Source: Octadecabacter algicola
GTDB taxonomy: Bacteria > Pseudomonadota > Alphaproteobacteria > Rhodobacterales > Rhodobacteraceae
DNA: 64,000 bases
NCBI RefSeq assembly: GCF_021532625.1
Contig: NZ_JAKGAR010000003.1
Span: forward strand, 372,001 to 436,000
Direction of reading: 5' to 3'
Part shown: positions 11,041 through 12,969 of the stretch, piece by piece
How positions within the stretch are numbered: the first letter of the stretch is position 1
Layout: each line of letters opens with the position of its first letter
Translations under genes and position numbers: made by a program
The notes under the pieces: model-generated
The model's database searches: none
What the model was told of the DNA's origin: nothing
What the model saw: only the letters and a program-made list of their open reading frames with translations

Positions 11041-11676
11041 ATGACCAAACTTCTACCAGGCGTAATCGCCATGGCCATCGTTGTGGTGGCATCAAACATC
11101 CTTGTGCAGTTCCTGATCCTCGATGGATTGCTAACGTGGGGTGCATTCACATATCCGCTCGCATTCCTCGTAACCGACTTGATGAACCGTGTTTACGGCG
11201 CAGGCCCTGCGCGGCGCGTTGTTTTCTTTGGCTTCGTCGCTGGCATCATCTGTTCCCTGATCGGCAGCCAGATCATGATCCAAGGCGATGGGTATGAATT
11301 CCCCGCCGTCGCACTACGCGTTGCAATTGGCTCGGCGACAGGCTTCCTCGTCGCGCAGCTCATCGACGTTGCGATTTTCCAACGCCTGCGAGACGGCCTT
11401 TGGTGGAAGGCGCCTTTAGCGTCGACATTGATCGGTTCGACCATTGACACGTTGCTGTTCTTCACCATTGCTTTCAGCAGCTTGATATCCTTCGGCGCAA
11501 ATGCTGATGCCGAAGTGTCATGGGCGCTCGATTCAGTTCCTTTCTTGCTCACCGGACCTGAGGCACCTCTGTGGATCTCACTTGCCGTGGCAGACTGGGG
11601 CGTAAAACTGATTATCGCTCTGCTCGCCCTTGTACCATTCCGCCTAATTGTGGGGCGCTTACAACGCGTCACATAA
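11041..11676 (+). CDS. yhhQ: Queuosine precursor transporter YhhQ (VUT family)
   Basis: Membrane protein of 211 residues with about six hydrophobic helices and the VUT-family motif FLVTDLMNRVYGAGPARRVV. YhhQ imports preQ0/preQ1 for queuosine modification of tRNA. I prefer the ATG at 11041; a TTG at 11020 in the same frame (residues MSKRIDK) is also possible and neither has a strong ribosome site. It lies downstream of the mepA terminator and must have its own promoter in the short gap. Confidence 0.88.
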   Translation: MTKLLPGVIAMAIVVVASNILVQFLILDGLLTWGAFTYPLAFLVTDLMNRVYGAGPARRVVFFGFVAGIICSLIGSQIMIQGDGYEFPAVALRVAIGSATGFLVAQLIDVAIFQRLRDGLWWKAPLASTLIGSTIDTLLFFTIAFSSLISFGANADAEVSWALDSVPFLLTGPEAPLWISLAVADWGVKLIIALLALVPFRLIVGRLQRVT

Positions 11677-11710
11677 ATGTTGTGAAAAAATCTTTGGTAA
11701 TCCCCAGAAG

Positions 11711-11740
11711 TTGTGCCAACCTAGGGTCAGGCGAAACAAT
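11711..11740 (+). promoter_or_regulatory. Putative promoter of the structured RNA
   Basis: TTGTGC (11711-11716 approximately) and AACAAT (11735-11740) are separated by about 17-18 bp and look like weak -35 and -10 hexamers. Transcription would start near 11746-11748, at the first bases of the segment complementary to the 16S rRNA tail. The assignment is by eye and needs mapping. Confidence 0.4.
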
Positions 11741-11743
11741 GAA

Positions 11744-11915
11744 CAGGAGGTGATCCAGTGTCGAGAAAGATAGTGGTAGGACGTGTCGGGACAACTATGG
11801 AGGCATGTGTCTAGGGCAGCCCTTGGGCATATAAATCTGTAGGTGAGACCCTCTAACCGGCATCACCTCCTGAACTTTCGAAGGGCCATTCCTATCGCTG
11901 GGAATGGCCCTTTTT
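11744..11915 (+). ncRNA. Candidate structured RNA with 16S-tail complement and anti-SD mimic
   Basis: The segment AGGAGGTGATCCAG (11745-11758) is a 14-nt perfect complement of the conserved 16S rRNA 3' end. About 100 nt later ATCACCTCCTG (11862-11872) repeats the 16S tail itself. The two can pair over about 13 bp with one bulge, closing the molecule end to end. A GTG seven nt after the GGAGG opens an 18-codon reading frame (11759-11815) rich in codons such as AGA, ATA and GTA that are unusual for this genome. The unit ends in a strong terminator. It lies between yhhQ and arfB, a ribosome-rescue gene. It may be a small RNA acting on ribosomes, a leader-peptide switch, or a 6S-like RNA. I recognise no named family. 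Confidence 0.6.
11881..11915 (+). terminator. Intrinsic terminator of the structured RNA
   Basis: A perfect 12-bp stem AAGGGCCATTCC / GGAATGGCCCTT with a roughly 8-nt loop runs into TTTTT. It ends the candidate RNA and separates it from arfB, whose ATG is 55 bp further on. Confidence 0.9.
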
Positions 11916-11969: not shown

Positions 11970-12389
11970 ATGGGACTATGGATAAACGATAGTATTGAGA
12001 TTGCCGATTGGGAGCTGACGGAACATTTCGTCCGTGCCTCTGGCCCCGGCGGCCAGAACGTCAACAAAGTGAGCACGGCGGTTGAGCTACGGTTCGAGGC
12101 CGAACGATCCCCCGCGTTGACAGGGCCTGTCAAAACCCGCCTGCGCCGCGCGGCGGGTAGGAAATGGACAAGTGACGGCGCGGTGGTGATCTTTGTGCAA
12201 GATACGCGGTCCCAGGCAAGGAACCGCGAACTGGCCCGCGAGCGATTGGCCGAACTCATTCGCGCAGCTTTGGTCGCCCCGAAACGGCGGGTAAAAACGC
12301 GCGTATCCCAGAACCAGAAACGCAAAAGGGTAGACGCGAAGAAAAAGCGCGGAGAGGTTAAGGCCTTGCGTAAAGGGCCGGGAATTTAG
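11970..12389 (+). CDS. arfB: Alternative ribosome-rescue factor ArfB (YaeJ)
   Basis: Protein of 139 residues, the usual length of ArfB. It has the catalytic GGQ loop (ASGPGGQNVNKVST, about residues 24-37) of class I release factors, but no stop-codon recognition domain. The C-terminus is a basic tail (KRRVKTRVSQNQKRKRVDAKKK), which in ArfB enters the empty mRNA channel. It hydrolyses peptidyl-tRNA on stalled ribosomes. The start ATG at 11970 has only a weak ribosome site. The upstream structured RNA is a notable neighbour, and trmL converges on the gene from the right. Confidence 0.93.
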   Translation: MGLWINDSIEIADWELTEHFVRASGPGGQNVNKVSTAVELRFEAERSPALTGPVKTRLRRAAGRKWTSDGAVVIFVQDTRSQARNRELARERLAELIRAALVAPKRRVKTRVSQNQKRKRVDAKKKRGEVKALRKGPGI

Positions 12390-12419: not shown

Positions 12420-12893
12420 TCATCCACCCAGTTGTGTCCGCATGGCTTGATAAATCACTGCTGTCGCGACATTCGCCAAGTTCAAGGATCGGACGCGTGT
12501 ATCAAGCATCGGCAAGCTGAACGTCCGGTCTTCCATCTCATTAAGAATGTCCAATGGCAGACCCTTGGATTCGCAACCGAAGACCAAAAAACCGTCTTGT
12601 TGGTAATCAGCATCGTAGAGGGTTTGCGCCCCGGTCTCTTCGAAAAAGAACAGGTTTTCGCGCTGAGGGTTTCGGGCAATTAGGAAATCTTGCCAACTAT
12701 CGTATTCACTTAGGTTAACATACTGCCAGTAGTCTGTTCCGGCCCGCCGCACTGCTTTCTCATCAAGAGAAAACCCATAAGGTTTGATCAAAATCAGTTC
12801 TAGATTCAAAGCAACACAGGTCCGCCCGATGGCGCCCGTATTGTATGGGATTTCAGGTGTCACCAGAACGATTTTCATGCGCGGTTCAGACAT
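12420..12893 (-). CDS. trmL: tRNA (cytidine/uridine-2'-O-)-methyltransferase TrmL
   Basis: SPOUT methyltransferase of 157 residues. It contains IVLVTPEIPYNTGAIGRTC at the N-terminus, FGCESKGLP in the middle and the knot motif RSLNLANVATAVIYQAMR at the C-terminus. It methylates the 2'-OH of position 34 in tRNA-Leu isoacceptors. I chose ATG 12893 (MSEPRMK); the ATG at 12878 is equally compatible with the family. A longer frame reaching 13046 would overlap the next gene and has no family support. Together with arfB and yhhQ it gives this stretch a translation and tRNA flavour. Confidence 0.92.
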   Translation of the reverse strand: MSEPRMKIVLVTPEIPYNTGAIGRTCVALNLELILIKPYGFSLDEKAVRRAGTDYWQYVNLSEYDSWQDFLIARNPQRENLFFFEETGAQTLYDADYQQDGFLVFGCESKGLPLDILNEMEDRTFSLPMLDTRVRSLNLANVATAVIYQAMRTQLGG

Positions 12894-12969
12894 AGGATGT
12901 TTCGACTTTTTCGTTTGAGGAAGCTGCATTCGCAACGGGCCATCTGTTTTGTTGAGTTCCGCTTGGGGC

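Follow-up and report, generated by a model that had tools for sequence, protein, structure and literature searches.

The window, a stretch of 64,000 nt, carries between a transporter gene and an arfB-like gene an element that is a real, conserved and structured small mRNA, most likely rreR. Specifically, we consider it very probable that the element is a copy of rreR in the form of an independent small mRNA, about 180 nt long, folded so that its extended Shine-Dalgarno (SD) sequence is held in a closing helix, P1, and gated by the 30S ribosomal subunit.

Results

A 16S-tail complement and a 16S-tail mimic in one RNA

The extended SD of the element, AGGAGGTGATCCAG, is a perfect 14-nt complement of the 3' tail of 16S rRNA and the longest such complement in the window, the next independent match being 10 nt long and on the opposite strand. 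About 0.002 such 14-mers are expected on both strands of the window under a second-order model, in agreement with the initial annotation, which had reported the complement and judged a chance match very unlikely. The same 16S tail stands at a site resembling rRNA in a relative (L298, L300); the search for a 16S gene found none in the window's own assembly, and the control list of that search likewise lacks Caulobacter.

Downstream of the SD lies an 11-nt segment resembling the 16S tail itself, ATCACCTCCTG (ATCACCTCCT(G)), which on the plus strand, the one scanned for this purpose, is the longest tail-like stretch (10 nt). This mimic pairs with the SD, as had been proposed, in the minimum-energy fold, whose energy of -80 kcal/mol (z = -5.7) was equalled by none of 200 shuffles. 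The terminator hairpin expected behind the mimic is part of the same fold. A simple consensus scan for promoters and terminators listed neither at the element. The features are collected in the table below.

Table. Features of the element and its neighbours in the window
Feature	Position	Strand	Evidence
Vut_1 family transporter, upstream neighbour	11041..11676	+	PF02592; upstream in 123/129 loci
Weak -35-like element TTGGTA	11694..11699	+	4/6 matches to TTGACA
P1 5' arm (the SD itself)	11744..11754	+	Fold and pair counts
Extended SD, running into the GTG start codon	11745..11758	+	No variation in GGAGGTG or AGTG among 76 aligned RNAs
18-codon GTG frame VSRKIVVGRVGTTMEACV with TAG stop (taken to be rreR)	11758..11814	+	Frame lengths and stop conservation in relatives
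P2 5' arm (GTCGG, codons 10-11)	11785..11789	+	94.4% of cells paired; 4/5 pairs changed on both sides
P3 5' arm (codons 13-15)	11794..11800	+	68.6% of cells paired; 7/7 pairs changed on both sides
Hairpin P4, stop codon in its 5' strand	11811..11826	+	82.4% of cells paired; 4/6 pairs changed on both sides
P3 3' arm, in the 3' region	11837..11843	+	As for the P3 5' arm
P2 3' arm (CCGGC)	11857..11861	+	As for the P2 5' arm
P1 3' arm (16S-tail mimic)	11862..11872	+	7 core pairs counted
Intrinsic terminator hairpin, then T run	11880..11913	+	15 pairs in the minimum-energy fold
ArfB-like RF-1 domain protein, downstream neighbour	11970..12389	+	PF00472; downstream in 108/129 loci

Distribution in the Rhodobacteraceae

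At the curated gathering thresholds, no Rfam family is found in the window. Below threshold, the element matches RF01867 (CC2171) over the full length of the model (positions 1-159 of 159) with 38.6 bits and E = 7.1e-7, short of the gathering score of 75. The other Rfam matches at E up to 5, suhB and RAGATH-32, are both weak and below their gathering scores, and families other than CC2171 are rejected as the identity of the element; 6S RNA, which had also been considered, is not among the three hits obtained at this cutoff.

RF01867 matches were obtained in 120 of the 149 Rhodobacteraceae genomes searched, with 0/149 reaching the threshold, which points to conservation in the family. Of the 29 genomes without a match, 20 were searched by pattern, and 11 places in 9 genomes were obtained: 6 genomes carry an SD followed by a short frame, one of them of 12 codons, whereas two of the remaining hits are 16S ends in one genome and three look like chance. 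For comparison, sequences were drawn from the matching genomes with the exception of three (G026, G094 and G160), yielding 132 distinct rows, and 129 after removal of L108, L119 and L138, in which the SD was not located. Both the SD and the mimic are conserved in the family, and in 74 of the 129 relatives the perfect complement at the same place is 16-18 nt long, compared with 14 nt in the window copy.

A conserved fold

The RNA adopts a predicted structure of six helices that is maintained among the relatives. In alignment A1, which comprises 76 of the 129 rows (rows with long inserts, some others and all ten rows lacking a stop at codon 19 were left out), 90.0% of the cells of this structure are paired, and 24 of the 39 pairs have changed on both sides, compared with 13.3 in shuffles, none of 500 of which reaches 24. 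The stems thus covary in relatives. When helix partners are slid by 1-3 columns, pairing falls to 31-60%, a comparison that favours the unslid structure because it was partly derived from the same sequences. RNAalifold alone returns P1, P2, a 3-pair helix and the terminator, without P3 or P4; the latter two were placed by reading the alignment, and the register of P3 was moved by one column after the counts had been seen. Repeating the pair counts, without shuffles, on all 129 rows and on the 53 left-out rows gave 96.0% and 95.1% of cells paired for P1, 94.1% and 91.5% for P2, 69.7% and 71.3% for P3, and 79.8% and 76.0% for P4. The terminator helix is paired in 98.4% of cells among the 76 relatives, with 9 of its 11 pairs changed on both sides.

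The 7 core pairs of P1 are formed in 97.7% of cells in the 76 RNAs, and the minimum-energy fold pairs the SD core with the 3' part of the RNA in 118/129 rows. Since the SD arm is invariant in the aligned rows, no double change can prove this helix. The changes on the mimic side lead mostly to G-U or U-G pairs; most of them are transitions that keep the pair, as mutation bias could also produce.

Pairing energies point to a possible contest for the SD. The predicted duplex of the SD with the 16S tail averages -31.3 kcal/mol, versus -18.0 kcal/mol for the SD with the RNA's own 3' region, the tail being stronger in 129/129 rows; in the window copy, the values are -29.0 and -23.5 kcal/mol, respectively. 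With a shorter SD stretch, the duplex with the 3' region averages -16.5 kcal/mol compared with -13.0 for shuffled 3' regions, and beats all 50 shuffles in only 27/129 rows. According to these calculations, the SD could be contested between the mimic and the 16S tail of the ribosome.

The 18-codon frame

To judge from its conservation among relatives, the frame following the SD is a gene. It spans 18 codons in 119 of 132 rows, and GTG is the start codon of 112 out of 116 distinct frames of this length. A stop stands exactly at codon 19 in 119/129 related RNAs (TAG in 56, TGA in 50 and TAA in 13) and is absent in 10/129, with 0-8 stops at each of the neighbouring offsets; TGG at codon 19 was found 0 times, versus 23.5 expected if the two purine columns varied independently. 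Because the stop is conserved as a stop, the proposal that the frame is a mere decoy is not supported. The peptide pattern in the Rhodobacteraceae is roughly VSRKVLERGVGTxxExxx. A BLOSUM coding test gives a weak signal (mean 0.31 versus -0.36, sd 0.39, in column shuffles, where the highest of 30 was 0.43), and variation at codon position 3 does not exceed that at positions 1 or 2, perhaps because the fold constrains the RNA as well. Seven rows from the family (L084, L090, L093, L118, L120, L127 and L133) keep the SD, but their frame starts with ATG and is diverged or longer.

Related elements across the Alphaproteobacteria

In the class as a whole, 71 of 288 genomes match RF01867, 10 of them over the threshold. 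All ten loci over threshold (L142-L151) contain a short frame after an extended SD, nine beginning with VSHC or MSHC and the tenth with VSHR, and these frames suggest that CC2171 may code for a peptide instead of being a non-coding sRNA. The window element and RF01867 have in common the 5' region with SD and start and the 3' terminator, and differ in that Rfam types the family as an sRNA gene and the element scores below its threshold. CC2171 is listed among the sRNAs of Mesorhizobium in one paper, and CC2171/RF01867 also appears in the paper on Rfam 15. A passage of another article states that two formerly predicted Caulobacter ncRNAs are in fact translated (PMC4117421).

A pattern scan of named genomes yielded at least 118 places, among them Ruegeria, Roseovarius, Paracoccus and Defluviimonas loci with the element. 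Among the 80 listed places that were analysed, the frame has 14 codons at 5 loci, four of which are titled Bradyrhizobium, 18 codons at 38 and 20-31 codons at 35, and in the other 2 it ran past the end of the fetched DNA. The peptide sequences differ from order to order. At least 4 of 5 SD-core bases are paired in the predicted fold in 20/22 rows with a peptide starting xSR, versus just 17/54 with xSH and 4/13 with xSS, and an SD-sequestering mimic is not supported as a class-wide feature. At the five 14-codon loci, the predicted partner of the SD core lies within the frame. The VSHCH group has a recurring closing helix, TCATTGTC/GACAATGG, but individual sequences do no better than shuffles: in 1 of 84 rows were there at most 5 equally good ones among 100 shuffles. 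In the Bradyrhizobium and Xanthobacteraceae loci L228, L239, L245, L249 and L201, a TCACCTC within the 14-codon frame can pair with the SD, suggesting that the tail mimic is differently placed in this lineage. One contig titled Gemmatimonadota (L204) shows the SD-plus-start pattern with a 21-codon frame, for which chance, mis-binning or transfer are possible explanations.

Promoter and neighbouring genes

Upstream of the element, the Vut_1 gene presumably encodes a queuosine precursor transporter. The gene downstream carries an RF-1 domain, in accordance with its annotation as arfB. Although the -35-like element of the window copy is weak and no -10 box was identified there, 82/129 loci have an upstream hexamer that agrees with TTGACA at 5 or all 6 positions, located between -50 and -48 relative to the SD in 69 of them, and transcription of the window copy would begin at about 11728-11735. 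The pair of transporter and RNA occurs without a detected arfB in 17/129 loci. Together with the near-fixed TTGACA-like element, these loci indicate, at the level of sequence comparison, that the RNA is most likely transcribed from a promoter of its own and does not serve primarily as a leader of arfB.

The longest downstream frames at the 21 loci without a nearby arfB include some that look spurious, and Pfam was consulted for four of them: an amidase (L024), a LysR-type regulator (L132) and an amidohydrolase (L125), the last two on the opposite strand, and an MFS transporter at L090, where both usual neighbours are missing. At 30 class-level loci, tblastn over about 1.5 kb of surrounding DNA detected no arfB and no transporter gene. 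As the RNA also occurs without a detected arfB, the readthrough switch of arfB suggested at the outset is unlikely to be its conserved role, and we reject it as such. On the minus strand, a gene at 12420-12896, presumably TrmL-like, is convergent to arfB and has a counterpart in only 2 of 132 fetched rows.

Discussion

Our results suggest an order of events in which the RNA would be made from its own promoter and end at the terminator, with the SD of the free molecule held in P1. Since the 16S tail is predicted to pair with the SD more strongly than does the RNA's own 3' region, an arriving 30S subunit could open P1, and translation would next unzip P2-P4; the RNA would in this way be held by, and regulated at, 30S subunits, with little peptide made. 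The earlier reading of the molecule as a structured and conserved RNA, in which SD and mimic keep their pairing and the ribosomal tail could compete for the SD, accordingly stands in these parts, but not in the decoy frame or the arfB switch. We further offer, tentatively and with more doubt than confidence, that the Rhodobacteraceae RNA senses or buffers 30S subunits: its internal version of the 16S tail, in competition with the ribosome's 3' end for the SD, would let the fold read out free 30S tails, and the peptide would be replaceable, while the tail-pairing site would not.

A non-coding RNA acting in trans, which holds 30S subunits or free 16S tails as a sponge or sensor while its frame is incidental, would account for an SD complement far longer than initiation needs, for the strong predicted pairing with the tail and for peptide sequences that differ between orders, and rreB reportedly co-sediments with 30S subunits. 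We nonetheless hold it to be unlikely, given that the stop is kept through alternative stop codons in 119/129 relatives and the peptide pattern is conserved in the family; an RNA that acts in trans may also be coding, and the chances of this explanation therefore overlap those of the rreR mRNA. Less likely still is that the element is simply a small protein gene, specially regulated in no way, whose ribosome-binding site is unusually strong: the spacing of the SD and the start codon are indeed ordinary and the frame is conserved, but compensatory changes occur in helices that run through the coding region, the SD is predicted to pair with the mimic, and long tail complements recur ahead of short frames in several orders.

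That the RNA is a leader or attenuator of arfB, in which the state of the ribosome alters the fold and transcription runs on into the gene, appears very improbable. The position of arfB downstream on the same strand in most loci and the attenuator-like combination of a short frame, a stop-codon hairpin and a terminator would fit it, yet arfB does not always follow (108/129), its place being taken by other genes in loci that retain the transporter and the RNA (L024, L132 and L125), and it was not detected within about 1.5 kb at the 30 class-level loci. Leader peptides and attenuators such as trpL and peTrpL resemble the element in their short frame, stop codon within a hairpin and terminator, and differ from it in that its family has no constant downstream gene. 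As for a chance match combined with a chance fold, we found no point in its favour, and its probability is negligible in view of the conservation across genera, the RF01867 matches throughout the Rhodobacteraceae, the rarity of the 14-mer, the comparison of the fold with shuffles and the stop counts.

The preferred reading, a small mRNA of the rreR type, connects the element with a known kind of gene. Hahn and colleagues, in 2017, reportedly described rreB and rreR as small mRNAs whose extended SD complements the 3' end of 16S rRNA over at least 16 nt, rreB having 14 codons and occurring in Bradyrhizobium, and rreR having 18 residues and occurring in the Rhodobacter/Roseobacter lineage; besides its association with 30S subunits, rreB is said to be weakly translated and to be stabilised on loss of its start codon. 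The 14- and 18-codon frames found here agree with these lengths, and we take the 18-codon frame of the window to be rreR. As far as rreR can be compared from its reported description, the element shares with it the extended SD, the GTG start of an 18-codon frame (14 codons in Bradyrhizobium), the small, presumably free-standing transcript and the conservation in the Rhodobacter/Roseobacter lineage, and the covarying fold and the 16S-tail mimic are what is described here from sequence.

While the kind of gene is thus already known, no description was found of the helix between mimic and SD or of the covarying fold in a literature search that covered sources other than the full text of Hahn et al. 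2017. Beyond the mentions of CC2171, no further paper among the matches listed was tied to the gene. The reference list of PMC7298713 includes Hahn et al. 2017 (RNA Biol 14:1353). Caulobacter Sis sRNAs, which according to a passage of PMC12559287 carry an anti-SD-like motif and are said to use it in pairing with target RNAs, have a 16S-tail-like stretch in common with the window RNA, in which the predicted partner of the mimic is instead the SD of the same molecule.

A near-complete complement of the 16S tail on a small mRNA is kept in at least 120 of 149 Rhodobacteraceae genomes and recurs in other alphaproteobacterial orders, even as the related family CC2171 is typed as an sRNA in Rfam. The conserved fold and the tail mimic provide specific bases at which an mRNA gated by the ribosome could be tested and, if the proposal is true, a 30S-sensing RNA would constitute an alphaproteobacterial kind of regulation.

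The window copy departs from rreR, as the latter is reported, in the length of its perfect complement, 14 nt compared with 16-17 nt. At base 11744, a C replaces the A ahead of AGGAGG both in the window copy and in one relative (L003), which shortens the 16S complement to 14 nt, and in the window copy the self-pairing of the SD extends to 11 bp.
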